Origin: a virus
Direction: 5' to 3' (one strand)
Virus record (IMG/VR): IMGVR_UViG_3300045256_000294
Location: 62,001 to 126,000 of that record
Length of the DNA stretch: 64,000 nt
How positions within the stretch are numbered: position 1 is the first letter of the stretch; the number at the start of each line of letters is the position of its first letter. This document shows positions 1,246 to 59,177 of this stretch, piece after piece. Under the pieces are notes generated by a model, which ran no database searches, had not been told where the DNA came from, and saw only the letters and a program-made list of their open reading frames with translations. The translations under genes and the position numbers were made by a program.

Positions 1246-4200
1246 TCAGTTTACTGGATCAGGCATACTCAGGTTCAGCATATACCCTCCACGCGATGGC
1301 GACAGGAAGCGGTCGAAAGACAGCCCCCACAGCAACGGGTCGAGGGTGTGAATACCGAGCAGGTAGCAGACCAGTGAACCACCAGCACTCCCACGTGGGC
1401 TAAAAGGCCAGCCCTGCTCGCGGCCGTGCAGCACCAGGGTCCGCGTAATAATGAAGTACGACGAGAAGCCCTTATCGATGAACCGCTTGAGTTCGATCTT
1501 AGCCTGCTCGACGTAAGTCACTTCTTTACCGTCGATGATGAACTTCTCCCGGCACGTATCCAGGCCAAGCTCACGGAGTCGAAGGGCGACCAGCCGCTTC
1601 AACTCCTCATCAGCATTCGGAATGTTCGGGATCTTTGGATCAGGATCGAAATCGAACGGCGTCACCTTGTCCGCTATGACCAATGAGTTATCGCACATCG
1701 TCTCGAATACGCTGTCCGGAATCCCCTTCGAGTAAGGATAATTCTTGAAGCGAGCCCAAAGCTCACCCCGTGTCTTCATATACTGCTCGTCAGAATTGAC
1801 GTGAAACAGGTCCTTGCTGTAAACGTTGGTGTCCTGAGCGATGGCCATCATCACTTTCTGCAACAGGAAGTCCTTCCGCGTCAGGTAATGGCAATTTGAA
1901 CTAGTAACCCCAACCAAGAAGCTGCTATCATCTTCCACTTGAATACACCATACCTCCGAAATATCAGATTCAATCCGACGAAATGGATTCTTAATCCAGA
2001 CAATATCGCCTTCAAGCTTCCATTTCCGCCGGACCTTAGCGGAATCATAAGAAACATCGTAACCGAGAGCACGCAGGCCAATTTTACCGACACTACCAGT
2101 ATAGCCTTCGCGGCGGTGTGTGCATATCACCCCACGCTTCTTACTCCTAATAACCATCTGTTTCGCCGGGCGAAGCGAGGTGGTGACCCCTAGCCCAACC
2201 GCCGCAAAAGCCTGAACCAGGTCCGTCAATAATTGAATTGAGACGGTGAAGAACGATTTACGACTCCGGCAACTATCACCATCAAAATAGCCACGCAGGA
2301 GCACCAGCAACTGGCGCTGAGACAGACTAGACCAAAATGCGGGTAACCGCTTCTTGTGCGATCTATTACCCATAAGATCTGAGAAGAGGTATGAGAAGCC
2401 AGAAGAACAAACCCTGGTACGTACCCCCCTCCCACTAATAGCAACGTGTCTGATCTGCGGATTAAAACCGAATCCAGAGAAAAATCCTTTGAGACGATTG
2501 AAAAGATGTGGCTCGTTCTCATGATGACCGAAAGTGAGACGATACCCGTCCGATGCCCCCTCGGATAGATACATGCCCATGGTCCAAAGCAGATCATCAG
2601 ATAATTCCAAATGATCTGGAATTGGATTAATTGTCTTGCCACCGACTGGGAACACCAAACCATTACGAATTGCGAGACGCGACCCTCGCAAATAGTCTGA
2701 AGCACGAATTGTTCGCAAATCATCACTTGGCAAAATGATGCGGCTCACGGCGATCTCAGCATTTGGGTCAAGTTGCTGGATTTCTCTAAACCCAACTACC
2801 CCATCGGCGTTGTGCCTAGATAAAAGTTTGTGATTACCAGTACACTGAATGGCCTTACTACCAAGATATCCATAAATGGCCTCACCGTCCCGAACCCGGC
2901 GTTTCCCGACTTGTATGACTTGCCGGAGCCGACCGCGATGAGTCCACACTAAATCACCAGGTCTCAATTCACAAAGTTTCTTAGATCCGGCGGCAGTCTG
3001 AACCGGCACTTCCGAATTCCAACAATCGTTCGCTAGAACCAGTGGGATCTTGTAGTTGTCGGCGAGCATAACCAGAGTGCGGAACACCCAAGCGTCGTCC
3101 TCTACGCCCGGCATTTGCAATTCCATGTAGTAGTCATCGCCAAAGACCGCCTTGAACTTCTTGACCCAGGTGACCGCCTCGTCCAACCGGGTCTTACGAT
3201 CACGTTCTAGGATCAAGTTACCATCCCGGTCCCGAAGTTCCTTATATCGCAATTCATGACATACCGGCCCGTTGAGGCACCCAGACAGGACGATAAGTCC
3301 TTCCTTGAACTCGCACAACTTATCAAACCAAATGCGGTTGAACTGCTTCTGACTGACGCCGAACAGCCCGGTGCCGTAAGCTTGGGTGGTCAATTTGACC
3401 AAATTCTCGAAGCCAGTCTTGTTCTTGCACAGCACCGTAAGGTGGCGGTTACGGATAATACGGGCTGCGAGTTCTGGGTTCTGCCGCCGCCACTCAGGAG
3501 AGCGGACTTTGTGACCACGCCTCTCCAGGTCTTGGCGGACCGGCTCGAAGTCGTTGAAGTAGATCTCACAGTTGTGGACAGCAACTCCTGTGTAATACGA
3601 ATTGTCGCCCTCAACTTCCATGTTGTACACTGTACCTGAGTAACGATCTTTCTCTACTGCATACACCGGGAGATAAATGTACTCATCGTCATAATCATAG
3701 TGAAAATGACCACTCTCACGCCTGCGAATTGTGTATGAGCCCTGGCGACCATCGACCCCGGGCAGTTTAGTCACTGCGGAGTGTTGCGGAACGTCTAGCT
3801 TCGTCATTAGCAACCTGGCTTGCCAGACGAGGGTCCTACTAGACAGTTTCAGGTAACTGCTTCGTTCACCACATTTGACATCCCCATCGTACAGACCATT
3901 AAGCAGTGCCTTGGTCTGTTCACGATTCAGACGATGTAACCACACATCTGGGATCTTCTTTTCGCTGAAACCGGAACCGAACAGGTGCACGAACAATCGG
4001 CCGAAGAAATCGGAATAGACCTGGACATCCATGACCTGCTGTCGCCGCGATTCACCGTCCCCGTCCCGCATACTAAATGATGTCTTGATGTCAAACTGAG
4101 CGAAATAAGCCGCGATTCGCTCATAGAAATGATATTCATCAGCGGCGAGAGAAAAGTGCGGACCACCATTGGGTGCCGATCCTGCGGCAAGCCAAAGACC

Positions 4201-5064
4201 CATAATCCACAGCAGCTCATCGTCCATGTCTAGGAACATAGGAAGGTTGACATCGACAGTGGTCCGGTAGCCCTCTTTGGTGTAAGTCGCCGATACGATC
4301 TGGGCACGCCCCGAGTCGATTAGCGGTTCCACAGACATATCTGACGGGAAGATTTTATCGACAAGATCGATATCTGTATATTCACCGACAGGGAGACGAG
4401 GCACACACAGATAAAATCTATGCCGCCGTTTGTTAGAACGATCCTGACTCCGATTGCTAGCATATGTTCGGCAATACTTCTCCCTGAATAATTCATCAGC
4501 ACGCCGAAACCCACAAGTAATAATATCTTCCCATACACCTTTCTTGACTTCGGCCCTGGTTACCTCACGGACCAGAAGCGGGTGCTCAGGCGTACAAACC
4601 TGATCTTCTACACCCCATGCCTTAATCCGTATAATGTCGCCATTGTACTGTCGAGTCTGCAGGTTCAGAACGCGACAAACACGGGCCCTATGGGTGAGCA
4701 CCATATCGTCCGGCTGGACATCTACGAAAGGCTTCACACCACTCGTGGTATAGATTGGTTGCAATGGTAAGAAACAGCCGGGGATGTACTTGACCTTCGC
4801 TTTCTTGAAGGCGAGGTACATGTCTGGGACACTGGCCATGTGCCCGTGTTCGGTCGCACTCATGGCGGGATAGCCACGCTTCTTACACTGCTCGGCGTAC
4901 TGCTCCGGGGTGGCCACTCCATCCAAGGTAGAGAAGACGGTGTGGTTGTGGAGGTGGACGAAGGTGCTGGAGCCGGTGTAGTCTTCCGGCTTATACTTCT
5001 CCTCAACCACCTTCGGCGTTGGGGCCGGTTGTTGGGGAGCGAGTTGTGGGTTAACCTCGACCAT
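1246..5064 (-). CDS. dnaE: DNA polymerase III alpha subunit (DnaE), N-terminal part only, with two inteins
   Basis: The 1272 residues reduce to about 493 after removal of two inteins. The extein opens with a PHP domain (FVHLHNHTVFSTLDG with its metal-binding HxH) and continues through DnaE hallmarks: VLSGCLNG, the LAND/CHYL junction (the family's xNDxHYL motif) and FSPRGSAGGSLVCYLLG. It then reaches FDRFLSPSRGGYMLNLSMPD and stops four codons later. In DnaE the MPD is normally followed at once by IDxDF, which carries the catalytic aspartates. So the palm active site, thumb, beta-binding and OB regions (more than 600 residues) are absent here. A second gene for the C-terminal half is presumably elsewhere, or the gene is truncated. 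The start ATG 5064 overlaps the preceding gene by 14 bases. Confidence 0.85.
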   Translation of the reverse strand: MVEVNPQLAPQQPAPTPKVVEEKYKPEDYTGSSTFVHLHNHTVFSTLDGVATPEQYAEQCKKRGYPAMSATEHGHMASVPDMYLAFKKAKVKYIPGCFLPLQPIYTTSGVKPFVDVQPDDMVLTHRARVCRVLNLQTRQYNGDIIRIKAWGVEDQVCTPEHPLLVREVTRAEVKKGVWEDIITCGFRRADELFREKYCRTYASNRSQDRSNKRRHRFYLCVPRLPVGEYTDIDLVDKIFPSDMSVEPLIDSGRAQIVSATYTKEGYRTTVDVNLPMFLDMDDELLWIMGLWLAAGSAPNGGPHFSLAADEYHFYERIAAYFAQFDIKTSFSMRDGDGESRRQQVMDVQVYSDFFGRLFVHLFGSGFSEKKIPDVWLHRLNREQTKALLNGLYDGDVKCGERSSYLKLSSRTLVWQARLLMTKLDVPQHSAVTKLPGVDGRQGSYTIRRRESGHFHYDYDDEYIYLPVYAVEKDRYSGTVYNMEVEGDNSYYTGVAVHNCEIYFNDFEPVRQDLERRGHKVRSPEWRRQNPELAARIIRNRHLTVLCKNKTGFENLVKLTTQAYGTGLFGVSQKQFNRIWFDKLCEFKEGLIVLSGCLNGPVCHELRYKELRDRDGNLILERDRKTRLDEAVTWVKKFKAVFGDDYYMELQMPGVEDDAWVFRTLVMLADNYKIPLVLANDCWNSEVPVQTAAGSKKLCELRPGDLVWTHRGRLRQVIQVGKRRVRDGEAIYGYLGSKAIQCTGNHKLLSRHNADGVVGFREIQQLDPNAEIAVSRIILPSDDLRTIRASDYLRGSRLAIRNGLVFPVGGKTINPIPDHLELSDDLLWTMGMYLSEGASDGYRLTFGHHENEPHLFNRLKGFFSGFGFNPQIRHVAISGRGVRTRVCSSGFSYLFSDLMGNRSHKKRLPAFWSSLSQRQLLVLLRGYFDGDSCRSRKSFFTVSIQLLTDLVQAFAAVGLGVTTSLRPAKQMVIRSKKRGVICTHRREGYTGSVGKIGLRALGYDVSYDSAKVRRKWKLEGDIVWIKNPFRRIESDISEVWCIQVEDDSSFLVGVTSSNCHYLTRKDFLLQKVMMAIAQDTNVYSKDLFHVNSDEQYMKTRGELWARFKNYPYSKGIPDSVFETMCDNSLVIADKVTPFDFDPDPKIPNIPNADEELKRLVALRLRELGLDTCREKFIIDGKEVTYVEQAKIELKRFIDKGFSSYFIITRTLVLHGREQGWPFSPRGSAGGSLVCYLLGIHTLDPLLWGLSFDRFLSPSRGGYMLNLSMPDPVN
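1894..3024 (-). other. Intein 2 in DnaE (377 aa, LAGLIDADG type, ends Ser-Asn)
   Basis: The intein is inserted between LAND and CHYL, the most conserved motif of the DnaE PHP/palm junction. It begins CWNSEVPVQTAAG and ends VTSSN before Cys. Block B reads TGNHKLLS. LAGLIDADG-like helices are LLWTMGMYLSEGAS and LLRGYFDGDSC. The penultimate residue is Ser rather than the usual His, a known but uncommon variant that can slow Asn cyclisation. The segment is richer in A/T than the flanking extein, consistent with a mobile origin. Confidence 0.85.
3571..4776 (-). other. Intein 1 in DnaE (402 aa, LAGLIDADG type)
   Basis: The intein begins at Cys97 of the precursor (after KYIPG) and ends with HN before Cys (CEIYFND). 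Removing it gives continuous DnaE sequence in the PHP region. Visible splicing blocks are an N-terminal Cys, a TPEHPLL block-B-like motif, and the C-terminal VHN followed by Cys. The centre has two LAGLIDADG-like helices, LLWIMGLWLAAGS and ALLNGLYDGD, so it is a full-length intein with a likely homing endonuclease domain. The second helix keeps an Asp-Gly-Asp, consistent with retained metal binding. Positions are exact from codon boundaries. Confidence 0.85.
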
Positions 5065-38504: not shown

Positions 38505-38780
38505 ATGACCACGTCCGACCCGCGTTTGCGGAAAGTCAGGACTCCTTTGGCCAGCCCGGAGGCCCGCAAGTTACTTAAAGACCACAAGGAAGCTATCGTC
38601 ATCACCGTCAATCCGGACATGAAGGGTGACGGCGAAGTTAACTTGGCGGTCTACACCAAGCTGGCCAACGAGGGGGGCGTGTTAGCCACCTACCTCGAAC
38701 AGGTTTTGAAGAACCTGATGCGGACACGAAATGACAAACAAGCACATCGTACGGGCAAAGCCGCCCCAACTGGTGCGTAA
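38505..38780 (+). CDS. Hypothetical basic protein (91 aa)
   Basis: The protein starts MTTSDPRLRKVRTPLASP, then KEAIVITVNPDMKGDGEVN and a helix TKLANEGGVLATYLEQVL, ending with a basic tail. No family is recognised. Its last 50 bases overlap the DUF115-like gene, suggesting coupled expression. The Shine-Dalgarno is weak. Confidence 0.55.
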   Translation: MTTSDPRLRKVRTPLASPEARKLLKDHKEAIVITVNPDMKGDGEVNLAVYTKLANEGGVLATYLEQVLKNLMRTRNDKQAHRTGKAAPTGA

Positions 38781-40779
38781 GCGGATCCAAGTGGTCTTGC
38801 CGAAGAACGTCTCTGTCGTCATCAAACCCAGCCGAGCCCAGGTTGTCAACCTCAAAGACCTGAGGAAACAGGTCCCACAACCGGCGAAGCCTATACCACA
38901 GCCCAAAGTAGAACCGGCCCAACCACAGAATCTGGCAATGCCGGCGGCCGCGATCGCCCGACAAAAGCTCATCAAGAGTCGGCGATCGCAACAGGGACGT
39001 AAGAAAACCGAAGTCAAGTACGTCAGCCGGGACATCAACCCCGAATCTATCAACCGCATCGCATTGCTACGAAACGCGGGGAGGGGGAAGCTGTTGATAA
39101 TCGTGGGGAACGGCCCATCCATCCTCGAAGCAGACCTGGGCAGGCTCCGCAACAACCCCCGCATCCAGATTCTGACCGTCAACAAGCCCGATGCCCGGCT
39201 CTGGCCCACAGACTTCTGGGCCTTCTTCGACTCATCCCAATTCCGACGCCACGAAGAATTGTGGAACGGCTACAGTGGCCTCATCTTCAACAGCACCGCC
39301 ATCAAACGGCAGAAGTCCACCAGTATGCAGTTCAGGAATAAGGGTGGCAAAGGATGGAGTCGTGACCTACTATCTGGAATCCATATCGGCCGCTCGTCCG
39401 TCTACGCCAGCATGCAAATCGCCAGTTGGATGAACCACGAGCACGTCTACATCTTCGGGTGCCTGCCAGACGGAGAGAAGATTCTAACTGGCAGGGGTAT
39501 GGTCGCCATCGATGCCCTAGGGCCACTCGACCAAGTTTATACTACTCAAGGTTTCAAACAGTTGACAGGATACCAAAGACGCTGGTATGAAGGCACGCTG
39601 GTGTCGCTCACCACCAGGATGAATAATATTCCTCTAAATGTTACAGAAGAACATCCAATACTGGTTGAACGTCAAGGACAAGAGTCATTTGTGCGGGCTG
39701 GGGATATTGGCGTTGGTGATATAGCAATCTATCCGATTGACCAAAGTGTTGAAGAGGATCGACATAGCACAGACTTCTGGTGGTTAGTGGGTGTCTACGC
39801 TGCTCAAGGATATATTAGACCGGTTCGTGACAAGTACAAATACGCAGTGATGTGCTTGGGCCGTCACGAAGCTAGTTTCCAGCAAAAAGTCGCTAAGACT
39901 GCCGCCCTTTGTCTTGGATGCAGGACCACTGGAGACAAGCGCAATCGCTCGACCACCGAGCTTGTCATTAATAACGACTATTTCGGGCGATTCGTTGCCG
40001 AACATGTAGGCCGTGGTTCTACTACTAAATTTCTTAGCCCCACAGTGATGCGGCTTCCCCCCGACAAACAAGCCGCGTTTGTCGCAGGGTATTGTGAGGG
40101 TGATGGTTCTCTGTTCGTAAAAAATAAACTCGGCAAACATGAGTGCACATTCTCTACGGCATCGGAAAGTTTGGCCGAGTGTCTCCAGAAGCTTTTACTC
40201 AGATTCGGAGTTATATCGTCTCTGGTGAAATCTAAGCGCCCATCCGGATTTGATCGCTCCGGTTGTGGTCAATATGGGGTCCGTTATCATGTCCATGTTA
40301 TAGGGGCGGTTCTTGACAGCCTTGCCAGTCGTTGTGGATGGACAGTTACCACGAGCAAGAAAAGACCTTTATTTGATACTGAGATTTTGGATGGGCGGCT
40401 TCGCGTTCGGGTCAGGAGTGTGTCCCACACATCGTACGTTGGTTATGTCAACAACATCGAGGTGAAAGGGCCGCACACCTATAGTTCTCGTCTCCTCATG
40501 ACACACAACTGCGACATGAACCCCGACGGTATCAACGGAAAACTCCACTTCTACGGGCAGAACCCAGACGTCGATCAAGAACAGCGGAAGCAACGGTTCG
40601 CCAAGGAAGCAGTATTCTACGATCAGGCTGCTGACATCATGACCCCGGACGAGCGGCTGAAATTCACCTTCTGCTCGGCTTACAACAAATGGCCATTCGT
40701 CGAGAAGTATGGGCGTCTGGACCATCGCGAAGCAATTGACCACATCTTGAAACATGCTGAGCAGCTAAACAAATCCTGA
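38731..40779 (+). CDS. DUF115/MptE-like glycan protein with an intein
   Basis: The 682 residues become 332 after intein removal. The N-terminal 100 residues are basic and Pro/Gln-rich. The Rossmann-like core starts KLLIIVGNGPSILEADL (the GxGPS loop), then ILTVNKPDARLW, WAFFDSSQFRR, and HVYIFG joined to CDMNPDGINGK. The same loop and final strand occur in the DUF115 half of the glycosyltransferase at 8624. DUF115 proteins act in transfer or synthesis of surface sugars. The C-terminal tail is helical. It is followed after 60 bases by the deoxyribosyltransferase-like gene. Confidence 0.7.
   Translation: MTNKHIVRAKPPQLVRKRIQVVLPKNVSVVIKPSRAQVVNLKDLRKQVPQPAKPIPQPKVEPAQPQNLAMPAAAIARQKLIKSRRSQQGRKKTEVKYVSRDINPESINRIALLRNAGRGKLLIIVGNGPSILEADLGRLRNNPRIQILTVNKPDARLWPTDFWAFFDSSQFRRHEELWNGYSGLIFNSTAIKRQKSTSMQFRNKGGKGWSRDLLSGIHIGRSSVYASMQIASWMNHEHVYIFGCLPDGEKILTGRGMVAIDALGPLDQVYTTQGFKQLTGYQRRWYEGTLVSLTTRMNNIPLNVTEEHPILVERQGQESFVRAGDIGVGDIAIYPIDQSVEEDRHSTDFWWLVGVYAAQGYIRPVRDKYKYAVMCLGRHEASFQQKVAKTAALCLGCRTTGDKRNRSTTELVINNDYFGRFVAEHVGRGSTTKFLSPTVMRLPPDKQAAFVAGYCEGDGSLFVKNKLGKHECTFSTASESLAECLQKLLLRFGVISSLVKSKRPSGFDRSGCGQYGVRYHVHVIGAVLDSLASRCGWTVTTSKKRPLFDTEILDGRLRVRVRSVSHTSYVGYVNNIEVKGPHTYSSRLLMTHNCDMNPDGINGKLHFYGQNPDVDQEQRKQRFAKEAVFYDQAADIMTPDERLKFTFCSAYNKWPFVEKYGRLDHREAIDHILKHAEQLNKS
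39460..40509 (+). other. Intein in the DUF115-like protein (350 aa, LAGLIDADG type)
   Basis: The intein starts at Cys244 (CLPDGEKILTGRG) after VYIFG and ends MTHN before Cys (CDMNPDG), restoring the last core strand and its Asp. Block B is TEEHPILVE. LAGLIDADG-like helices are FWWLVGVYAAQGY and AAFVAGYCEGDGS; the first lacks the usual acidic residue. The insertion point is a conserved loop near the active site of a sugar-pathway enzyme, an unusual host for an intein. Composition is clearly richer in A/T than the extein. Confidence 0.85.
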
Positions 40780-40838: not shown

Positions 40839-41222
40839 ATGTCGGCAGTCTATGTTGGGTCGAGCCTGCATAACGCCCAGCGAGTCCGAGAGGTCCAACA
40901 ACGGTTTCGTGATGTAGGGATCGACATCACTTACGACTGGACCACCCACGGTCAGATCTTCGACGAAGCCCTCCTAGCCGAAGTCGGGGAGCTAGAGGAG
41001 AAAGGCGTCCGAGACTGCGACGTCTTTTTCATGCTTCATCCCGCCAGAAATGGCACTCACTATGAGATGGGCCTCGCTAAGGGGCTCAATAAACTCATCG
41101 TGATGGTGGCAGAGCAAGAAGTTGAGAAGAAGACCTTCTACTACACCAGCGGCATCGTCAAGTTCACCAACCTCGATGAAGCTATCGAATTCGTCAAGCT
41201 AACCCTGAGAGAAAGACCATGA
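40839..41222 (+). CDS. Nucleoside 2-deoxyribosyltransferase-like protein (127 aa)
   Basis: The pattern is MSAVYVGSSLHNAQRV (first strand and nucleotide loop), then ITYDWTTHG, then CDVFFMLHP and THYEMGLAKGLNK, where the Glu in the YEMGLA helix is the family nucleophile. This matches small deoxyribosyltransferase/RCL-type N-glycosidases acting on deoxynucleosides or deoxynucleoside monophosphates. The stop overlaps the DeoC-like gene (ATGA), and the PurZ-like gene is 1.7 kb downstream. A role in purine deoxynucleotide turnover is inferred. Confidence 0.65.
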   Translation: MSAVYVGSSLHNAQRVREVQQRFRDVGIDITYDWTTHGQIFDEALLAEVGELEEKGVRDCDVFFMLHPARNGTHYEMGLAKGLNKLIVMVAEQEVEKKTFYYTSGIVKFTNLDEAIEFVKLTLRERP

Positions 41223-41965
41223 GTGGCATCTTCAACCGCCTCGAACTGGACGTGATGCAGGCCAACGAACTCAAGGAGAGCGTCGAGCTAGCCTTCAAGT
41301 ATAAGTTCCCCGCGATCGTCGTACATCCCGGCCTCGCCTCCGACGCTCTACGAGCCCGCGGTGCCGTCCGCGGCCAGTTCAAGATCATCACCCCGGTGGA
41401 TTGGCCCAAGGGCGATAACTTCGGCATCGTGAAATTCCGCGGCCTGTCTCTCGACGCAGTAGAGACCGACGGGTTCGAGATCATGCTCACCGGCGGAAAG
41501 TCGGAGGGCGACACCAGGAACGAGGCCAAGGCCCTCACCGAATTCGTCAAAAGGCAGATCTCCGACCAAACGGAGGTTCGGTTCGTGCTAGGCAGCTTCA
41601 TGCGGGACAACGACAACCTCGCTGCCCTGTGCCGGGGGCTCTTACACGTTCGTACTCCTACCCTAGTTCGCACCGACACCCAACTCAAGCTTCAGGTGTC
41701 CAAGGCGAACACCGAAGAGCATAACCGGGTGGTTAATCTCATCCGCAGCATCGTCCAGGTGCCGGTGAAGGTGGCCGGCAATATCGCCGGGGTGCGGTCG
41801 GTGACCGGCTGCCCCGACGCCGCCCGGTACGCGGTGAACCTATTGCAGGCCCGCACGATCATCAAAGAGTTCCAGCAACAGCCCGGTGGCTTGCGAACTC
41901 TCCTAAACAGCCCGCCGCCGGACAACCCGGCCGAAGTGGAGCAAGAGGATGATGCTACCGTGTGA
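41219..41965 (+). CDS. DeoC-like aldolase-fold protein (248 aa)
   Basis: The protein reads as a TIM barrel: FPAIVVHPGLASDAL, then FKIITPVDWPKGDNFG, then TPTLVRTDTQLKLQV and VPVKVAGNIAGVRSV. The last two resemble the KTSTGF and KxSGGI strands of deoxyribose-phosphate aldolase. The catalytic Lys of the first appears replaced by Arg, while the second Lys is kept. Activity is therefore uncertain. The coupling to a deoxyribosyltransferase-like gene suggests joint handling of deoxyribose compounds. A Pro/Glu tail ends the protein. Confidence 0.45.
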   Translation: MSGIFNRLELDVMQANELKESVELAFKYKFPAIVVHPGLASDALRARGAVRGQFKIITPVDWPKGDNFGIVKFRGLSLDAVETDGFEIMLTGGKSEGDTRNEAKALTEFVKRQISDQTEVRFVLGSFMRDNDNLAALCRGLLHVRTPTLVRTDTQLKLQVSKANTEEHNRVVNLIRSIVQVPVKVAGNIAGVRSVTGCPDAARYAVNLLQARTIIKEFQQQPGGLRTLLNSPPPDNPAEVEQEDDATV

Positions 41966-42272
41966 TGCCTGCGGGAGCGAGCAAGAATTCGACGCGGGCA
42001 ATGATTATATCTTCTGCACCCGTTGCGGCCACTCGATCCCTGTAACCATGGAAACGGTACACATCGGTGAGAAGTTAGGGGAGGCCCTCCTGCTACCGCC
42101 GCCACAGGTATTAGAAGAAGGAACGGTCGTCATTATTGACCATGAGGATCACGTCTGGCACAATGAAATCGCCGTCATCTGTGGTGTTAAACACAAATTC
42201 TACCGCCTGGAATTCGGCGGTAGAAAAACCTGGGTCCCCTGCGAGTGGGTGAAAGAACATGAACCTCATTAG
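41949..42272 (+). CDS. Zinc-ribbon protein (107 aa)
   Basis: The N-terminus holds a zinc ribbon: LPCDACGSE and IFCTRCGHS. A short helix and an SH3/KOW-like beta barrel follow (EGTVVIIDHEDHVWHNEI then YRLEFGGRKTWV). This could bind nucleic acid or a ribonucleoprotein. It overlaps both neighbours by 14-17 bases and so belongs to the operon leading to the PurZ-like gene. No exact family is named. Confidence 0.6.
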   Translation: MMLPCDACGSEQEFDAGNDYIFCTRCGHSIPVTMETVHIGEKLGEALLLPPPQVLEEGTVVIIDHEDHVWHNEIAVICGVKHKFYRLEFGGRKTWVPCEWVKEHEPH

Positions 42273-42630
42273 CGAAATGGAGGAACTCGGCCAAGACGCC
42301 GACCTCCTGACCCGCAGCGACCCCTGGCTCGAACAGGAGCGGGTCCGCCTGTCCGAAGAGTTAGAGAAAGTTGCCACCCACCTACGGGCCGTGCACGTAG
42401 CCCAAAAGATCAAGCGGCAACTCCAGCAAAAAAACCTCGTCGCCGTCCAGCAACTCCTACGGGACGCCGACGGTGAGGTCAAGAACATCATCGTCCGGAT
42501 CATGAACCTACCGGACGCCCTGTCGATGCTCTCGACCTCAGACACCCTGGACGAACTGAACGTCGCCGCCCAACTCCACGGGTGGAAAGAGGACGGTTAC
42601 GATCTGGTGGCCAGCGCAGCCCTCCGATAA
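42259..42630 (+). CDS. Hypothetical helical protein (123 aa)
   Basis: This is an almost entirely helical protein with likely coiled-coil stretches (RVRLSEELEKVATHLRAV, then QKIKRQLQQKNLVAVQQ) and a short C-terminal domain. No family is recognised. It overlaps the zinc-ribbon gene by 14 bases. A GC hairpin follows its stop. Confidence 0.6.
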   Translation: MNLISEMEELGQDADLLTRSDPWLEQERVRLSEELEKVATHLRAVHVAQKIKRQLQQKNLVAVQQLLRDADGEVKNIIVRIMNLPDALSMLSTSDTLDELNVAAQLHGWKEDGYDLVASAALR

Positions 42631-42687: not shown

Positions 42688-42963
42688 ATGGAGCCAATAG
42701 TCTATCGTGTCATCGAGGCTACACCCAACGATAAGGGCATTTCTCTGCTCCTTAGTCAGGATGGGATCGAAGACCCAGAGGCTGACATCGTATTGGTGTG
42801 GCGGGATGACCAAGACGTCGAATGGGCACACTGGAAAGAACAAGACCACAGAGTCGATGCTCTATCCTGGCGATTCCCGCTAGACTCGTCAGACGACGAA
42901 ACGCACGTGTTGGTCAGTAACAACAAACTCTGGAGCAACAATAATGCAACCGCGGAAATTTAA
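42688..42963 (+). CDS. Hypothetical acidic protein (91 aa)
   Basis: This acidic 91-residue protein has MEPIVYRVIEATPNDKG, then ADIVLVWRDDQDVEWAHW and THVLVSNNKLW. It overlaps the PurZ-like start by 20 bases. The only ribosome-binding-like bases (GGAAGG) lie in the hairpin just upstream. No family is recognised. Context suggests co-expression with the PurZ-like gene. Confidence 0.55.
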   Translation: MEPIVYRVIEATPNDKGISLLLSQDGIEDPEADIVLVWRDDQDVEWAHWKEQDHRVDALSWRFPLDSSDDETHVLVSNNKLWSNNNATAEI

Positions 42964-45900
42964 CATCGTGACGGACGGGGCCTGGGGCTCGTGCGGCAAG
43001 GGCCTCATCACCACCGCCCTCGCCTGGAAGCACCGGCCACAAATCATCAGCACCACCAACATGGCGAATGCCGGACACTGCCAGACGGCTGACACCTACG
43101 TTATTACCGATCGTGGGCTGGAGCGTCTAGGGTCTGTCGTCCTCAATAGGACCGCCTCCCAAACCGTGAACATGGACGGGAACTTTGAGATGGTGTCGCA
43201 TCACCACTATGATGGCGTACGGCACATCAACGAGATCGCCCTTCAAAACGGAGTGAAGCTCCGGTGCACCGATGCCCATCGCTATTACGTCTGGGACATC
43301 CAGAACGCGGCGTTCAGATGGGTGGCCAGTAACAACCTCAACGCCGACCACCACATCTTTCTCTTCCCCAAGGAGGTTGCCTTCCCGAACAACAAACTCC
43401 TACCAGACCGGTGGTCGATGGAGCCTCTTCCCAACCGCACCATCATCACCCTACCGCCGGACTCGACCAAGACGGACGTGCGATTCGCCGAATACTTAGG
43501 GCTGCTGGTGGGTGATGGGTATTACGCCGGTCTGCAGAAGATCTCAATCGCCTTCCACAGCGATCGACTCGACGTGGCTGAGACGGTGGCCGACCTGTAT
43601 CGCGACATGGGTATTACGGCTGTCGAACTGCGGCGAGTACCGGGGAAGAGATACTCTACCCTTACCACCCGCCAGACCTCCGGCTTGAATGAACTGTTCA
43701 AGATCGTGGGCCTTGATAGGGCCACCAAGTCTGCCAAGAGGACGCCATCTGGCGTCCTACGGTCCAACAAGTTGGTCATTGCCGCCTATCTCCGTGGTCT
43801 GTTCGATGCGGACGGCTCGGTTAAGAAGGACCGCGTGCAGCTCACCAATTGCTCACGGGTCGTTGTGGAAGACGCCCAGCAGATGCTCTATGTTCTTGGT
43901 ATCCATTCATGTCTGAGCGTCTATCACTGTGACCGCCCCATCAAATCAGGCGTCCGGCTCCCACAATTCATCCTGTCAGTCTCCGGAAAGGCAGACCTGA
44001 TGGCCTTTCACCGCACGGTCGGTTTCCTGTCACGGGTCAAGACGGAGCGTCTCCTGGGACTTGTCGGCCAGACTGAGGAGCAAGGTCTAGTCCTACCCCT
44101 GTCACTGCAGCTGCGGCAAAAACTGCGACAATCTGGGCTGGCGGGCCGAACCAACACCCGCACCGCTTCGGTGGTGGAAAAACTCGCTAACAGCACCGAT
44201 CCGGAAATTGTGCGTCTCGTTGATCTGTGCCGAGACTATCACCCCGTACGCATCAAGTCGATCCGCTTACACTGCGATCAAGCTGAGGTGTTCGACATTA
44301 CCGTTCCCGGTACTCACAGCTATTTGGCCAACGGGTGTGTGTCGCACAACACCGCCGTCTTCACCGACGGCCGGACGTTCGTGGCTAAGGCCCTCCCCTC
44401 CGCCACCATCCTCACCAAGTGGCTCACCGACTACCAGCCGCAGATCGTCGTCGGCCCCACCGCCGCCTTCGACCTCGACCAGATGATGAAAGAGATCCAT
44501 GAGTGCGGGGTTAACCACTCCCTGACCATCCACCCGCGGGCCGGCGTCATCACCGAAGCCCACAAGCTGGCCGAGAGCGGCAACGGCGAAGGCTCAACCA
44601 AGCACATCGCCTCCACGATGCAGGGCTGCGGCGCCTTCCTAGCCGACAAGATCCTCCGCAAGAAGGGACTCCGGCTCGCCCGCGATTACCCCGAACTGAA
44701 CAGCTTTATGGCGGACTACCTGCCGCGGAAGCTAACCATGCTGGGAGCCGAGGCCGCTGCCCTCGAAGGACTCAGCCTGCCGGAGATGCTCTACCGGCTA
44801 ATGACCCGGCACGGCTACACCATTCTGCACGAAGGGAGCCAGGGCTTCTCCCTCGACATCAATCACGGCTCCCACTACCCCCAATGTCACCACATCGATA
44901 CTCTGGTTCGCGTCCGTACCGGCGATGGTGTTGTGGAAACGATCCGGTTGCAAAATGTGGATGTCTCCAGACACACCGAGATCGAGGACATCGGTGGATG
45001 GGTGCGTTTGCACAAATCGTGGGAGAATCTCGACCCGGAGCCGATGCTTGCCATCGTCGCCGGACAGAATTTGCTTATGGTGACCGCCGGGCACCCGACC
45101 ATCATTGAGCGTGATGGGGTACGGGTGGAGATTAGGGCCGACGCGGTTCGCCCCGGTGATCGCGTCTATACACCCACCCCCAACCGTCCTGTCGCTAACA
45201 AAGCCCTTGGACGCTCGCTTGCGTACGCGGTTGGCTATTTTCTGGGTGACGGATGGATCAGCGGAGAAATGCGGCCGGCGGCTCACCGTCCTACAGCCGG
45301 CCAGAAGAAAACCACAGAACTCGCCCGCTACCGAGCACGCAAACAAGACATGGTCGTCGAAACGCCGACACACCGGATGGCAGCAGCCCGCAAGACTCAG
45401 ATGTTGGGTGTGATCTTCTCGTCGCAGGATTTTTACCGCCTACCTGGGCATCTTGACCGTCTCAGTCTGACGCATCACATGCGGGCGACCAAGAGCAAAG
45501 CGTTCCGGCTCAACGTCTGGTCATCCGATTTCGCACGTCAACTGGACTCGATGGGCATCAAATCCGAACTCGCCCCTAACAAACGGTTGATGCCCGACTA
45601 TCTGGACTACGACGACGTGACCTTAGCGATGATCTTGGCCGGTTATATTGACTCTGACGGGACCGTGACCAAGACCGGCCGCGTCGTCTTCGAGGTTACG
45701 TCGTTGTGCCTGTGCCAGCAGTGGCAGCGCTGGTTGCATTCGTTGGGCATTAAGTGCTCGATCCGTCCCCGAAAGAAGTATGGAACACACTATAGCACAC
45801 ACACCACGACCGACCACTGGTTGATGTCGATCGTTTTCCACAAGAACCAGACCGAACACCCGGTATACCAGACTCTGCTTGCCGAATCCGCCAAGGCCGC

Positions 45901-46582
45901 AATTCGCCTGCGGCCTCAGGCTCGCTGCTGGGATCGTGACGCAACCCATGTCCGTTCGGCTTTCTCCGGCGGTCTGTCGAAGGTTACGAGAATCGTCCGA
46001 CTCGGTTTGCGGCGGGCTTGGGACGTCACTACCGACACCGGAACTTTCCTGGCCGGCGGCATCTTAGCCCACAACTGTACCAGCCGTGGGACAACCGGCA
46101 TGCAGAACATGGCCGACATGGGGATCAGCCACTTCGAACTCGGCGACGTCTACCTCGTCATCCGCCCATACCCGATCCGGGTGGGCAACGTGATCGAGAA
46201 CGGCCAACAGGTCGGCTACTCCGGCGACTGCTACGACGGCCAGGAGGAGATTACCTGGGAGCAGGTCGCCAAGGAGTCTGGCATGCCGGATGACGTGGCA
46301 GCGAGCTTGCTCAAAAAGGAACTGACGACGGTGACCAAGCGACTCCGCCGGGTATTCACCTTCTCTGACCGGCAGCTTCGGGAAGCGGCCCTCATTAACG
46401 GGGCCACCAAGATCGCCCTCAACTTCGCCAACTACATCGACTACTCGGTCGCCGGCAAAAACCAGTACGATGAACTCACCCCCAAGGTGAAGGACTTCAT
46501 CGCCCGTGTTGAGGACGTGACCAAGCTGCCGGTCACCGTGGTGGGGACCGGGCCACAGGTGGACCACGTGGTACTCCTCTGA
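42944..46582 (+). CDS. purZ: PurZ-like adenylosuccinate synthetase family enzyme with two inteins
   Basis: The 1212 residues become 391 after removal of two inteins. The N-terminal loop is DGAWGSCGKGLITTALA: the family's GDEGKG loop with Ser in place of the catalytic Asp. NMANAGH joined to TAVF follows, then KALPSA. This Ser variant and the NM-NAGHT pattern are those of phage PurZ (2-aminoadenylosuccinate synthase, which uses dGMP on the way to diaminopurine) rather than PurA. Downstream SQGFSLDINHGSHYP joined to CTSRGTTG is the nucleotide-binding loop, and QVGYSGDCYDGQ belongs to the C-terminal Asp-binding part. PurZ homologues also occur in phages without diaminopurine DNA, so the base modification is not proven. 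No DatZ- or MazZ-like gene is visible in the window. Confidence 0.75.
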   Translation: MQPRKFNIVTDGAWGSCGKGLITTALAWKHRPQIISTTNMANAGHCQTADTYVITDRGLERLGSVVLNRTASQTVNMDGNFEMVSHHHYDGVRHINEIALQNGVKLRCTDAHRYYVWDIQNAAFRWVASNNLNADHHIFLFPKEVAFPNNKLLPDRWSMEPLPNRTIITLPPDSTKTDVRFAEYLGLLVGDGYYAGLQKISIAFHSDRLDVAETVADLYRDMGITAVELRRVPGKRYSTLTTRQTSGLNELFKIVGLDRATKSAKRTPSGVLRSNKLVIAAYLRGLFDADGSVKKDRVQLTNCSRVVVEDAQQMLYVLGIHSCLSVYHCDRPIKSGVRLPQFILSVSGKADLMAFHRTVGFLSRVKTERLLGLVGQTEEQGLVLPLSLQLRQKLRQSGLAGRTNTRTASVVEKLANSTDPEIVRLVDLCRDYHPVRIKSIRLHCDQAEVFDITVPGTHSYLANGCVSHNTAVFTDGRTFVAKALPSATILTKWLTDYQPQIVVGPTAAFDLDQMMKEIHECGVNHSLTIHPRAGVITEAHKLAESGNGEGSTKHIASTMQGCGAFLADKILRKKGLRLARDYPELNSFMADYLPRKLTMLGAEAAALEGLSLPEMLYRLMTRHGYTILHEGSQGFSLDINHGSHYPQCHHIDTLVRVRTGDGVVETIRLQNVDVSRHTEIEDIGGWVRLHKSWENLDPEPMLAIVAGQNLLMVTAGHPTIIERDGVRVEIRADAVRPGDRVYTPTPNRPVANKALGRSLAYAVGYFLGDGWISGEMRPAAHRPTAGQKKTTELARYRARKQDMVVETPTHRMAAARKTQMLGVIFSSQDFYRLPGHLDRLSLTHHMRATKSKAFRLNVWSSDFARQLDSMGIKSELAPNKRLMPDYLDYDDVTLAMILAGYIDSDGTVTKTGRVVFEVTSLCLCQQWQRWLHSLGIKCSIRPRKKYGTHYSTHTTTDHWLMSIVFHKNQTEHPVYQTLLAESAKAAIRLRPQARCWDRDATHVRSAFSGGLSKVTRIVRLGLRRAWDVTTDTGTFLAGGILAHNCTSRGTTGMQNMADMGISHFELGDVYLVIRPYPIRVGNVIENGQQVGYSGDCYDGQEEITWEQVAKESGMPDDVAASLLKKELTTVTKRLRRVFTFSDRQLREAALINGATKIALNFANYIDYSVAGKNQYDELTPKVKDFIARVEDVTKLPVTVVGTGPQVDHVVLL
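43079..44350 (+). other. Intein 1 in the PurZ-like enzyme (424 aa, LAGLIDADG type)
   Basis: The intein lies between NAGH and T of the nucleotide-binding NAGHT motif. It starts CQTADTYVITDRG and ends VSHN before Thr, so the +1 nucleophile is Thr. Block B is CTDAHRYYV-like. LAGLIDADG helices are FAEYLGLLVGDGYY and IAAYLRGLFDADGSV, both with their acidic residue, so the endonuclease looks intact. Composition is close to that of the host gene, suggesting a long residence. Confidence 0.88.
44885..46075 (+). other. Intein 2 in the PurZ-like enzyme (397 aa, LAGLIDADG type)
   Basis: The intein lies between SHYPQ and CTSRGTTG, the second substrate-binding loop. It starts CHHIDTLVRVRTGDG and ends LAHN before Cys. 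Block B is TAGHPTIIE. LAGLIDADG helices are LAYAVGYFLGDGWI and LAMILAGYIDSDGTV, both acidic. The two inteins in this gene differ in +1 residue and sequence and so were acquired separately. Both must be removed for a working enzyme. Confidence 0.88.
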
Positions 46583-46836: not shown

Positions 46837-47634
46837 ATGCTACTCGATAAACTGAAAATTGCAGCCTACCTGGATGAAGCCGGCGAGGATATCCTGTCCG
46901 CCTGCTCAGTTCTGGCGGAACACAAGTTCAATTACGTCGTCCTCCGCCACGCCTGGAGTGGCAATATCCTCGACGTCAACGATCAGACCTGTGCCAAACT
47001 CCGCAAGACTCTACAGGATCACAACCTGAGCGTGGTCGCTCTGGTGACTGACCTGGGTAAAGTTGAGACGCCACAACTGATGCGGACGCCCAAGGAGAAG
47101 ATCGAGCGTCTGTTCAATCTGGCCACCTACTTCCAGGCCAGTATGGTGCGGGTGCACTGTGGGGTCAAGTCGCGTAACCAGGACGAGAAGGCGATTGAGT
47201 CCTGGATGCAGATGATCACCGAGAAGTGTCTGATCTCGACGACAATTCCGCTATATGAAGTAGTGGATGAGAGCGTCTACCGCGAGCCGCCAGAGGTCGC
47301 CAAATTACTATCGGCGAACCGACGCTGGAAGCTGCTGTACGACCCCGTTCAGCTTATCATCAAGCAGAACCAAAACCCATTTTTGCGGTATTGGACGTTG
47401 TTGAAGGCGTTCATAGCCGCTGTGGATCTTCGTGATTTCAAAATTGGTCACGGCTACAAGCCGGTTGGTCTTGGCGATGCCCGGATGAAGCTAACGGTTG
47501 ACGAGGGGCTGGGCGGCACGTATAAGGGCTGGTATTTCTTCGAGCCCTCTCTTGGCCGTCGCTACGCTTCCGCGGTAACTAAGGCGGATACTTTCAAGCT
47601 CGCTCTAGGAGCACTTGAAAATATCATGGCTTGA
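46837..47634 (+). CDS. Sugar-phosphate isomerase/AP-endonuclease-2-like TIM barrel (265 aa)
   Basis: The barrel strands are visible in order: LKIAAYLDEAGEDI, then FNYVVLRHAW, LSVVALVTDLG, ASMVRVHCGV, IPLYEVVDES, WKLLYDPVQL and FIAAVDLRDF. This is the xylose-isomerase-like/AP endonuclease 2 layout, with acidic residues at strand ends suited to a metal. It is most likely a sugar isomerase or epimerase rather than a DNA repair enzyme. It lies 30 bases after the 74-aa gene. Confidence 0.55.
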   Translation: MLLDKLKIAAYLDEAGEDILSACSVLAEHKFNYVVLRHAWSGNILDVNDQTCAKLRKTLQDHNLSVVALVTDLGKVETPQLMRTPKEKIERLFNLATYFQASMVRVHCGVKSRNQDEKAIESWMQMITEKCLISTTIPLYEVVDESVYREPPEVAKLLSANRRWKLLYDPVQLIIKQNQNPFLRYWTLLKAFIAAVDLRDFKIGHGYKPVGLGDARMKLTVDEGLGGTYKGWYFFEPSLGRRYASAVTKADTFKLALGALENIMA

Positions 47635-49962: not shown

Positions 49963-49995
49963 CCCAAAACTAAAGTGGACTTCTTAGGGGTGCAT

Positions 49996-52900
49996 ATGTC
50001 CACTGACCCATTCAGCGATATCGCATTCCAGCAGGAGATCGGACAGCCGACCTTCGCTGAACTCATCTATACAAAAGTGCGAGAGGGCAAATCGTTCCCG
50101 CCCTCCACGGCAACCGTGGAAAACTCGGTCAACCGGCTCGCCTTCGGCAAGCCGGGGCCGTACCGCGATATCGATGCCCAGACCCCGCCGAAGATCGTCA
50201 CTACCCCACCGAACCCAACGCGGCGGCAATACAACTTGTCCGGGACTACTACGCCCCAGACGGCCCAAGCCCTCAAAGCCCAGAAGATCCAGGCTGACTT
50301 CCGCAAGTTAGTCACCAACCCCGGCACGGACGACCAGATTAAAAATCTGATCCGCAAGCAGTCGGGCGACCCGGTCCTCAACGCCCCATTTGACACCGTA
50401 TACGACATCGTCAACCTTGGTGCTCCAATCGGGCTGCCGGTCCCATACGCCGGTTTGGTCTTCTCCGCCAACGATCCCAACGTCATCTGGGCGGGCGGTA
50501 GCGGCAACAACCCCATCGCCGGTGGCCTGTATGCCGTGCCCGTGACACGCGGCTCGGACGGCCACATCACTGCTGTCGGGTCAGCTACCAGGATCATCGA
50601 CGCTCCCAACATTGATGGCGGTGTGGCTTACCACCCCTCTGGTGTTCTGTTTGTGTGTGGTTGGCCCAGCAACACCCTACACCAGTACAAGCCGGGATCG
50701 ACGGCACCAGACAAAACCACCAATTTGAGCTCTCTCGGTGTCCAGAGTTCGGTAGGCAGCATCGGCTTCGTACCAATCGGTTATCCCGGTGCCGGAAATT
50801 GTTACATCGTGACTTGGCCTGCGGGCGCGACCTACCGGCTCGATCTGACTCCCGACGGTAACGGATTGTTCAACGTGGGACCGGCTGCGGCGATGACGGA
50901 CCAGGTTCCTGGTGGCCCGGAAGGATTCGTCTACGTACCTTTGGGTTCGGCGCTGTTCCCGAACCCCAGCATGATGGTAACGGAATATTCAAGAGGGCAA
51001 GTGTCGGCTTATGAGCTTGGCACTGCCGGACAGCCAGACATCTCCACTCGGCGGATCTTTCTGACCGGTCTGGCTAACGCTGAAGGGGCGGCGGTTGACC
51101 CGCTCACCGGCGACTACGTGTTCTCGACATTCGGCGGTTCCAACCTATTCTTCCTGATCCGTGGTGGATTCGTCCCGCCGAACCCCGGCACACCGCCGGC
51201 ATGCAACAAAGTCGTGAACTCGACCTTCGATAATGATATCGCTAGCTGGACCCCAAGTTCTGGGGCAGTGTTCTGGGAATCTGTTAGAGGACGGCTACGG
51301 ATCAACGCTCAGAACGCCTACGCCACGCAGATCATCACCGGGCTGACACCGGGTGCACAGTACACCATCAACTTCAAGGCATTCTTCAGCGGTAACGGAG
51401 TCGGCACTGTCGGCTATTCGACGGTTGGTACCGGCCAGTATCTGTTCAGTGGGAATAACGGGGAACTGAAGAGCTTCACTATCGAAGGCGGCTTTGTGCC
51501 AGCCAATGGCCAAGTCCAGATCGATTTGGTCAACAACGGGTTGAACACCATCGATTTCGATGACGTGTTCCTTTGTCTCGTTGACCCCACCGGCGACGAC
51601 GGCACCACCAACCCGCCATGCAACAAGATCGCCAATGGCTTTTTCGACACTGGCGTCCAGGGTTGGACCGCTGCCGGACCCAGCGATACTTTCCTATGGG
51701 ACGGAGCAAATAGGCGGATGACCATCCTCAACGGACTTACTTACACCGCCATCACAGGACTGACTCCCGGCAAGAAGCTGAATATCTCGCTCAAGGTATA
51801 CTGGCTCAGAATCCCAAGTGCACCACCTGGTTTCAGTCTGCCTCCAGATACCGTTACCTGGGAAGTAGAAACGCAGGTGCGGGCTGATATCGTCAACGGC
51901 CCGCAATTGGCAGCCAAGACCGTCTCTGGCACGCAGAATAGCAATCAGAGTGTAGTCTATGACGTCCAGGTCACGGTGCCCCCAAGTGGTATCATCTACT
52001 TCTGGGTCTGGAACAAGAACTACAGCGAACAGGTCCCCAATAGCCCCAATGTCCAGATGTTCTTGTCCCCAATCCAGGTGGACAACATCATTATCTGCGA
52101 AGTTGAAGACACCGAGGGGGCTTGCACTGACCCGATCACCGGAGTACGGACCCTAGTCCAGTGGAACGGCATCCCCAGGCAGCCACTCAACGTCTTCAAC
52201 ATATTGTTGCGGTTGGTCTATCGGAACATTAACGATCCATTCTCCAAGATCACTAGTGAAGTTCTTGCCGTCGCCGATGGACGGCTAGGAACCGTCACGC
52301 CCGCAAGCTGCTCAACCGGCAACACTGCCGACTTCTGGAAGCAGGACGGCGATAACACCGGCCAGCCCCAATCGCTCATCACCGCACAAGGACTTCAGGG
52401 GATCACCTCCAGCATCACGGCCGGGCAGTTCGCCAGTGTAGCCGACCGCGAGAACTTCTTGTGGTCGATCCCCGGCAACACCGGCGGGACCCTGCAGGAT
52501 GCTCTGGTGTCGCTCTTCGACGACCCGACTCCGCCAGCTAATCACGTGCTGGAGTCGGTCGAGATCCTAGCTCTGATGCAGGTCCTGAACCAGACCGGCT
52601 TATCTGGTGTCTCGGAAATTCTGGATGTGACGGGATCTGCGGCTGTGCCCGGTGAGCAGTCACTGATCTCGGTGCCACTGATCCCCGGTGGATCGCCGCC
52701 AACCGGGGACCCGCAGCTAGACACCAATGGGTTTACCTCGTATTGGCGGTCATCGCCAACCCCAATCAGCATCCCAAGTCCACCGGGGCAGCATTACGTC
52801 ACGCTGGGAGCAATCGACCTACCACTGTCGTTGCCCACAACCCAGCCACCATATGCCAACTTCTCGGTGCCGGCTAGTAGCCTCTGGCTCCGGCACTATT

Positions 52901-56177: not shown

Positions 56178-56711
56178 ATGTCTGCTTGTAAGTACGGGGG
56201 CTGTTCTATCTGCTGATCGACGCACTTGCGATGAGTGCAAAACCGCAAGGCATTAAAACGTAGGAGCTATGCCCGACGCTCCGAGAAAATCCGTGAACAC
56301 AATCGCACCTACGAACGAGAAGACGGCCACCTATCGGCACAATCTCCGAACGTACTTTTGCTACGTCATCCAGAATGTCAAGGCGAAAAGAGACAAACAC
56401 CGCAATCCGAATCGATCGACGAAAGAGTTTGCTGTCGATATCATTTTGTGGTCGATTTGTGGCATCAACAACGTGGACGGTGTGCGATTACTGGAATGGA
56501 AATGCTCCATCGGCCGGACGATTTATGCAGTGCTAGCATTGACAGACGGGACAACTCGCGGGGCTATTTTCCGGACAACGTACATCTTGTGTGTCGGTGG
56601 GTTAATCTAGCTCGCGGTAAATTCACGTTAGACGAATTCACAAAGGTCTTGGATGGACTACGCCATCAATTCACCACTCGACCCGAACAAACCGTTCTGT
56701 CTCTATGCTAA
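56178..56711 (+). pseudogene. HNH homing endonuclease broken by several frameshifts
   Basis: Pieces in different frames join into one HNH enzyme. They run MSACKYGGCSIC, then RTCDECKTARH, then RRSYARRSEKIREHNRTY, then YFCYVIQNVKAKRDKHRN, then LWHQQRGRCAITGMEM. They end with SIDRRDNSRGYFPDNVHLV, the catalytic D..N..H part, and a helix. At least three frame changes fall between 56213 and 56450. The conserved end (Cys-x-Ile-Thr-Gly and Asp-Asn-Val) is intact, so decay is recent. Its 3' end overlaps the NucS-like start. This many frameshifts in one gene argue for real decay rather than an isolated sequencing error. Confidence 0.75.
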
Positions 56712-57318
56712 CTGCGAAGTTTTATATGAGGGCCGAGCATCTTCGACTCTTGAACGTGGCAATTACCTCGTCGTCTACAAGAATGACCGTAGTGTCTCCA
56801 TCCACGGAGCTACTATCGTCATGCCACGCAACTATATGAGGGCTGGCAGCAAACTCCGCGAAGTGGGCAACCAGATCCTTTTCCAAAGGAAGGGCGAGAC
56901 AGTCTGCATTAAGATCAACCACATTCACTTCCTAAACTACCTCGACGATTGGTCAGAATCGAAGATCGTGATTTGTCGTACAGAGAAGGAATTAGCCAAG
57001 AAGATCTTCGATAACTGGTCTGATCTGTTCGACGACAACTTCGAGATCGTCGAGATGGAGTTCGGCACCGATCTGGGGCCTATCGATCTAGCTGGTTTCA
57101 CTCCTACGGCTGACTATATTGTGGAAGTCAAACGGAAGAGGGCTAGTCTTAAGGACGTAACCCAACTACGTCGCTATGTCGAAGCCATGGAACACCGTGG
57201 CCGTCCGTGCCGTGCTTTCCTGGCCGCACCTGAGATTGCGAAGAATGCTATGAAGTATTTGGAGAAGCATAATCTACAGTTCCTTGAAGTGAATTTCGAC
57301 GGGCAGCGGGAGGGGTAA
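56653..57318 (+). CDS. nucS: NucS/EndoMS-like endonuclease
   Basis: The protein has 221 residues. The N-terminal DNA-binding part reads CEVLYEGRASSTLERGNYLVV, then VSIHGATIVMPRNYMRAGS. The C-terminal PD-(D/E)XK nuclease has LGPIDLAGF, then YIVEVKRKRASLKDVTQLRRYV, with the catalytic D, E and K in place, and CRAFLAAPEI. NucS cuts DNA at mismatches (EndoMS) in archaea and actinobacteria and binds the clamp. A phage copy could serve replication fidelity or attack host DNA. The start overlaps the dead HNH gene, so the first ten or so residues may not be original. Confidence 0.8.
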   Translation: MDYAINSPLDPNKPFCLYANCEVLYEGRASSTLERGNYLVVYKNDRSVSIHGATIVMPRNYMRAGSKLREVGNQILFQRKGETVCIKINHIHFLNYLDDWSESKIVICRTEKELAKKIFDNWSDLFDDNFEIVEMEFGTDLGPIDLAGFTPTADYIVEVKRKRASLKDVTQLRRYVEAMEHRGRPCRAFLAAPEIAKNAMKYLEKHNLQFLEVNFDGQREG

Positions 57319-57346
57319 GCCCCTTCACACGTTCTTCTTGAAAGCT

Positions 57347-58606: not shown

Positions 58607-58629
58607 ACTTCTATCTTTGCGAGATAGTG

Positions 58630-59073
58630 ATGCAGATCCCGTTCCTCGTTCTGAGCTATGGAGACTTCGCTAAGTCCAAAAAGCTGTTCAGCTACGAACG
58701 GGACGGCGTACACACCCTACCCATCTTCACTGATGCTTCTCGTGCTATCAAATTTGCGGAATCGATGACACAGACTCTCCGCCGGCAATTCAAAGACAAG
58801 CGGACTTTGAGTACTCAACTCTGTAATGACCCAAAGCGGGCTCTGCAGATGTTCGAGACAATTACCGCCTACTGCCCAGATCTGATGCGGGTGATTATAG
58901 ATCCACATCCGCCGGTCCGAGACGATGAAGCTCTCACCGACCTGGAGAATCTCTCCTGGGTCGAGAATTTCCAGGATATCGATGACGTCCTGGAACAACT
59001 TCAGGATTGGGTGTCTGCCGACAAGGAGGCAGACTCTATCACAAAAGGCGAGCCGGAATCGAACGGCACGTAG
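58630..59073 (+). CDS. Hypothetical protein (147 aa)
   Basis: The start is ATG 58630 (a GTG three bases earlier is possible). The protein reads MQIPFLVLSYGDFAKSKK, then LPIFTDASRAIKFAESM, then an acidic C-terminal helix (DDVLEQLQDWVSADKE). LPIFTDASRA resembles SseB-like small proteins, but that is weak. It overlaps the convergent 58-aa gene by 73 bases. Confidence 0.5.
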   Translation: MQIPFLVLSYGDFAKSKKLFSYERDGVHTLPIFTDASRAIKFAESMTQTLRRQFKDKRTLSTQLCNDPKRALQMFETITAYCPDLMRVIIDPHPPVRDDEALTDLENLSWVENFQDIDDVLEQLQDWVSADKEADSITKGEPESNGT

Positions 59074-59177
59074 CCTTCCGTCTCCTCGTAGTAAACCGGG
59101 GCTTTCTTTACCGGCTTGGCAGTCGGGGCTGGGGCCTCGTCTGTCGGGGGATCATCTAGTGGGATCTCTTCTTCCAT
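59001..59177 (-). CDS. Small acidic Pro-rich protein (58 aa)
   Basis: ATG 59177 is preceded seven bases upstream by GAGGAGG, one of the best ribosome-binding sites in the window. The protein reads MEEEIPLDDPPTDEAPAP, then KPVKKAPVYYEETEG and a Ser-rich end at TGA 59001. It overlaps the convergent plus-strand gene by 73 bases. The function is unknown; disordered and acidic. Confidence 0.5.
   Translation of the reverse strand: MEEEIPLDDPPTDEAPAPTAKPVKKAPVYYEETEGYVPFDSGSPFVIESASLSADTQS

Follow-up and report, generated by a model that had tools for sequence, protein, structure and literature searches.

Can a large virus of bacteria that encodes a DnaE replicase carry 2-aminoadenine (Z) in its DNA? 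The question is raised by a gene in a 64,000-nucleotide stretch of viral DNA, here called the window, which covers positions 62001-126000 of the 136,952-bp virus record IMGVR_UViG_3300045256_000294. The gene encodes a relative of PurZ, the enzyme that starts Z synthesis, and it is interrupted by two inteins. Judged by its family placement, the extein is a PurZ-type enzyme of a divergent lineage that would use dGMP as its substrate. With some reserve, we consider it probable that this enzyme supplies dZTP to the DnaE replicase and that the nucleotide pool is controlled by an NDT-like glycosidase encoded nearby.

The interrupted purZ gene

The gene is a single continuous, stop-free open reading frame (ORF). 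The sequence-only reading of this DNA had described its coordinates, a Ser in the GSCGKG loop, an NMANAGH/T pattern, two inteins and a 391-aa (amino acid) extein, and all of these were recovered from the ORF, its Pfam domains and the excision of the inteins. The gene is built as follows (a slash marks a splice site).

42944..46582, plus strand: purZ-type gene encoding a 1212-aa precursor, from which removal of two in-frame inteins leaves a 391-aa extein
42944..43078, plus strand: extein 1 (aa 1-45); contains Ser16 in the GSCGKG loop and ends at the splice junction with the catalytic His45
43079..44350, plus strand: intein 1 (aa 46-469, 424 aa), class 1 LAGLIDADG, between His45 and Thr (NAGH/T); splice blocks assigned from the sequence
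44351..44884, plus strand: extein 2 (precursor aa 470-647)
44885..46075, plus strand: intein 2 (aa 648-1044, 397 aa), class 1 LAGLIDADG/Hom_end, in the dGMP-pocket loop YPQ/CTSRGTT; splice blocks read from the sequence
46076..46582, plus strand: extein 3; carries R258/V259, R314/R315 and the ATP-type NFANY motif (N342)

Pfam detects Intein_splicing, LAGLIDADG_3, Hom_end and Adenylsucc_synt domains in the ORF, and in-silico excision of both inteins leaves an extein of the adenylosuccinate synthetase family (PF00709). Both inteins have the features of class 1, i.e., an N-terminal Cys, TxxH as block B, HN at the C-terminus with Cys or Thr at +1, and two LAGLIDADG motifs. Intein 1 runs from C46 to SHN469/T with the block-B sequence TDAH, intein 2 from C648 to AHN1044/C with TAGH, and each has two LAGLIDADG-type motifs. 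Since the Cys, TxxH and HN blocks and both LAGLIDADG-type motifs are complete, the two inteins look capable of splicing and homing, and we infer that they are spliced out.

The insertion sites are in active-site loops, as had been noticed from the letters. Intein 1 follows directly after the catalytic His45, and intein 2 separates extein residues Q223 and C224, in the loop equivalent to the one with Y203/C204/T205 that lines the dGMP pocket of S-2L PurZ (PMC8342488). Because both inteins sit at catalytic loops, the activity of the enzyme would depend on splicing. A scan of viral contigs found 13 loci related to purZ, 11 of them at 54-66% identity, and a wider contig scan added further PurZ relatives, on contigs of up to 408 kb. 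The relatives that were translated have unbroken PurZ frames of 366-425 aa; the purZ inteins are therefore private to this record among the relatives seen.

About nine inteins are present in the record: two in PurZ, two and a split one in DnaE, and others in a helicase, RecA, a glycosyltransferase and another conserved protein. The intein-bearing regions are window 1246-5064, 21542-24439, 38731-40779 and 42944-46582, L005:8541-11549, L006:6727-8937 and record 57300-59300.

Family placement of the extein

PHROG 1211, which carries the PurZ family annotation, matches the purZ ORF at 5.5e-47. The solved structures closest to the extein are archaeal-type PurA and phage PurZ, and its identity to named phage relatives reaches at most about 37%. 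In a family tree of 71 sequences, the extein and the large-phage sequences L009-L019 form one clade (support 100/99), which is nested within the PurZ clade of phiVC8, S-2L and SH-Ab 15497 (support 100/99). PurZ0 (Wayne, Ghobes, Archimedes, Hiyaa) is on a separate branch away from the extein, and the extein is also outside PurA. Approximately unbiased (AU) tests reject trees in which the lineage is forced together with PurZ0 (p 0.001) or with archaeal PurA (p 4.5e-77). The PurZ-like grouping proposed earlier is thus borne out after in-silico removal of the inteins, both by the tree and by the AU tests.

At the Asp13 position (GSxGKG) the extein has Ser16, a residue that PurZ, PurZ0 and alphaproteobacterial homologues all share. 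Since PurZ0 and the alphaproteobacterial relatives also have it, Ser16 is insufficient as proof of a PurZ, and the exchange of Asp for Ser is not the specific PurZ mark for which it had been taken. N342, in place of the GTP-selecting Asp, is common to PurZ only. R227 (the Arg of TSR) is as in PurZ and distinguishes the extein from PurZ0.

Several other family members came up in these searches. Alphaproteobacterial plasmids and chromosomes carry short adenylosuccinate synthetase homologues of the archaeal type (L138-L141, L094-L109), many of which have Ser in place of Asp13; a Rhizobium plasmid copy with Asp at position 13 (L141) adjoins purB, folE and queE. PurZ-clade genes related to that of Bacillus phage 140 are located on contigs of Clostridia metagenome-assembled genomes (L058-L073) and may be phage DNA in the bins. 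Flavobacterium phage MaF61 (L048, 168 kb) encodes a long-branch PurZ-clade protein next to terminase and ribonucleotide reductase genes.

Replication and nucleotide-pool genes

The DnaE that had been reported in the window is real and its catalytic motifs, PDIDID and KWDLLGLKTL, are intact. However, the window holds only the N-terminal part:

1246..5064, minus strand: N-terminal portion of DnaE, comprising the PHP domain and the beginning of the polymerase core and carrying two inteins; starts about 38 kb from purZ

Record positions 59106-61229, beyond the window, encode the palm/fingers part. The gene is broken into the N-part with its two inteins, the palm/fingers part with the N-half of a split intein at its end, a free endonuclease-like ORF, a short C-intein half and the remainder. 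In the split-intein region (record 56325-61229, L006/L007, minus strand) the C-intein half ends HRN/S and precedes the DnaE C-terminus. DnaE finger domains are found in 16 of the 22 searched records with a PurZ at least 50% identical, and each record of 137 kb or more that has a PurZ of this lineage (13 in total) encodes DnaE.

A diverged PolA-like gene also lies outside the window; of the 13 large records, 12 have such a gene. In the eight aligned copies of the lineage it is a fingers-less remnant: motif A and the Asp of motif C are kept and motif B, of the fingers, is missing. Its score on the DpoZ model is 23 bits, where the cut-off is 500; the missing motif B and this score rule it out as a DpoZ. 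The protein (L006:2140-3504, minus strand; orthologues L027-L035) is conserved at about 400-450 aa. A full-length PolA match is found only in G011 and more distant records. As far as the motifs tell, DnaE is the sole polymerase found with an intact catalytic set. Known Z-phages use a specialised PolA (DpoZ) or, in S-2L, PrimPol; the latter is a published exception (PMC8342488) to the rule, stated in the sequence-only reading, that PurZ of Z-phages goes together with a family A polymerase.

The surroundings of purZ are conserved in relatives, in the order 477-aa gene (opposite strand), 290-aa gene, NDT-like gene, DeoC-fold gene, two small genes, purZ, TIM-barrel gene and more small genes. In the window these include:

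40839..41222, plus strand: 127-aa NDT-superfamily nucleoside (mono)phosphate N-glycosidase/transferase-like protein, upstream of purZ (Pfam, PDB profiles, AlphaFold2 fold, synteny)
41219..41965, plus strand: DeoC-fold protein (deoxyribose-phosphate aldolase fold); AlphaFold2 predicted local distance difference test (pLDDT) 83, Foldseek E 5e-11 to DERA
42259..42630, plus strand: conserved 123-aa protein immediately upstream of purZ
46837..47634, plus strand: conserved AP_endonuc_2/xylose-isomerase-like TIM-barrel protein, downstream of purZ

The NDT-like protein matches Pfam PF05014 at 2.2e-6, just short of the cut-off of that family, and PDB profiles of CMP N-glycosidases and deoxyribosyltransferases. 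Its AlphaFold2 model has a pLDDT of 93.8 and a fold matching MilB, NDT, BcmB and DNPH1. The family has an invariant Glu in a GxHxExG motif, its position upstream of purZ is syntenic in relatives, and 18 of the 27 contigs with the family also carry PurZ; a search for it among named phages gave no match. Members on contigs without a detected PurZ (L245-L255) have neighbours that include Prim-Pol (L246), MazG (L250) and ThyX (L254).

The DeoC-fold neighbour was considered as a working deoxyribose-phosphate aldolase and set aside. The fold fits, but the position of the Schiff-base Lys is apparently Arg151, which is invariant (strand register set by eye against E. coli DeoC), so aldolase activity is doubtful. 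A sequence-level PDB search with this protein gave no match.

A dUTPase-family domain elsewhere in the record is, as read from its sequence, fused behind a DHFR-like domain and lies beside thymidylate synthase (thyA); at L008:5110-7067 thymidylate synthase is followed by the DHFR-dUTPase fusion. Its hairpin has the canonical-looking DPDYRG (DxDYRG), in contrast to the DAGYRG of DutZ, and the motif thus gives no support to the domain as a DutZ.

Parts of the record are T4-like, namely the tail sheath, gp15, gp23 and gp32, with UvsY matched weakly. A 1912-aa ORF at window 49975-55713, negative in a Pfam search, is partly conserved in relatives; window 7001-8503 (minus strand) encodes a 500-aa Volactin (actin-like) protein, and L004:15380-16705 (minus strand) a dihydroorotase/allantoinase-like amidohydrolase that scores under the NCBIfam cut-offs.

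A proposed route to Z-DNA, its alternatives and known systems

We suggest the following route. Once both inteins are spliced out, the active PurZ-like enzyme would join aspartate to dGMP, using (d)ATP, and form N6-succino-2-amino-dAMP, which host PurB and kinases could convert to dZTP. Degraded host DNA or host phosphatases could provide the dGMP. The phage DnaE would then insert Z opposite T, and most DNA polymerases do not discriminate between dATP and dZTP (PMC8342488). Because DatZ and MazZ are absent, competition by dATP is probably limited in another way, and the likeliest candidate for this control is the conserved NDT-superfamily N-glycosidase just upstream of purZ. It may split dAMP, as does DmtZ, an NDT-family dAMP hydrolase that acts alongside PurZ0 in PurZ0 phages (PMC12884076). 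It can be speculated, more doubtfully, that these phages represent a distinct Z-DNA system, in which a deep PurZ lineage is combined with a family C DnaE that copies Z genomes, and removal of dA as the monophosphate by an NDT-type N-glycosidase replaces DatZ, MazZ and DpoZ. If so, a bacterial-type replicase can carry a whole Z genome, in phages of 140-400 kb, and such genomes in DnaE phages would point to another route of dATP clearance.

Several observations weigh against this proposal. The presence of DatZ and MazZ had been put forward as a check, and it came out negative in the record and its near relatives. An alignment search for DatZ gave no convincing copy in the lineage, including the 13 records of at least 137 kb, and a PF12917 search was also negative; a MazZ/DUF550 alignment search gave none in the eight lineage records tested. 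Each alignment search found 5 of 5 positive controls. The single borderline MazZ/DUF550 match is in G011. The MazG Pfam family was dropped as a test for MazZ as it failed to detect the known S-2L MazZ, and the MazZ/DUF550 alignment was used instead. Since these searches were negative, Z in the virion DNA of this lineage is something that we infer. The virus record may also be incomplete. Nine contigs with the NDT-like family, all of at most 84 kb, have no detected PurZ, and the profile link from the NDT-like protein to DmtZ is weak, with a WT(x)HG stretch common to both (Ghobes sequence). The extein scores 209.5 bits on the NCBIfam PurZ model NF038379, below the curated cut-off of 300 (relatives 215-236 bits, known PurZ 350-421 bits), and 211 bits on the archaeal-type PurA model, where the cut-off is 368; no PurA cut-off is reached. 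Being below the cut-offs of both PurZ and PurA, it therefore belongs to a divergent lineage. Finally, Ser-type relatives exist in alphaproteobacterial plasmids and chromosomes, and to our knowledge Z-DNA is not known from the alphaproteobacteria that bear them.

The missing DatZ, MazZ and DpoZ would also fit an enzyme that makes dZMP while the DNA is only partly substituted or not at all. Here dZTP would be a competitor or a partial modification, DnaE would not discriminate and dATP would not be removed. The S-2L gene set put Z into the chromosomal DNA of E. coli and replaced about a quarter of plasmid adenine (PMC8342488), which together with the indifference of most polymerases agrees with such an outcome. 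We nevertheless regard it as unlikely, as the conserved NDT-like neighbour resembles an alternative pool-control enzyme and the gene is kept across a deep large-phage lineage. It is decidedly improbable that the protein, as a Ser-type relative of adenylosuccinate synthetase, acts on another substrate or serves another role (e.g., GMP, or a modified purine not for DNA), like the alphaproteobacterial group: the existence of that group and the score under the PurZ cut-off speak for it, but these homologues branch outside PurZ with the GTP-type Asp in place, whereas the extein has the PurZ-type Asn and a position within the clade. A PurZ0-type pathway (PurZ0, DutZ and DmtZ), the fallback of the sequence-only reading, is suggested by the NDT-family neighbour and the dUTPase-family domain; the tree and AU test reject it, the PurZ0-typical Asp and Ser/Asn are absent, and the dUTPase domain has the fusion, location and hairpin described above, so that we give it very little probability, the PurZ0 assignment of the enzyme itself being excluded by tree and residues. 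An ordinary PurA that raises adenine nucleotides shares the family and the PF00709 match and can scarcely be entertained, given that the essential Asp13 is replaced by Ser and that tree and AU test reject it.

The preferred reading, in which PurZ feeds DnaE under NDT-type pool control, makes key claims that are directly testable, given a small gene set and the existence of relatives without inteins. Our literature search found no paper that mentions the large-phage DnaE-bearing PurZ lineage or an intein-split PurZ. Published Z-phages are sipho- or podoviruses (PMC8599892), and a 2026 survey of NCBI viruses divided PurZ phages into PurZ0 and PurZ, each with a PolA-type DpoZ group (PMC12884076).

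The enzyme shares with PurZ of phiVC8 (Vibrio), S-2L (cyanophage) and SH-Ab 15497 (Acinetobacter) its family, the Ser for Asp13, the His/Arg residues, the ATP-type NFxN/QY and one supported clade. However, identity is about 32-35%, and this lineage has a longer mid-region and falls below the NCBIfam PurZ cut-off. Its carriers are large phages with DnaE and without DatZ, MazZ or DpoZ, and the two inteins occur in this record only. With PurZ0 of Arthrobacter and Gordonia phages it has in common the Ser for Asp13 and an NDT-family enzyme encoded near the synthetase; yet PurZ0 forms a different clade and retains the GTP-type Asp, and here the DutZ signature is not seen and the NDT-like protein is weakly similar to DmtZ. 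The top-scoring named phage match (36%), the adenylosuccinate synthetase of Bacillus phage vB_BpsS-140, is within the PurZ clade; it is intein-free, comes from a 55 kb phage and forms a separate branch with the Clostridia sequences.

Phage genes fractured by split inteins, with free-standing homing endonucleases, are a known arrangement. The DnaE of this record resembles them, since a split intein interrupts it and an endonuclease-like ORF separates the two halves, and differs in that the fracture is in a PurZ-bearing phage.

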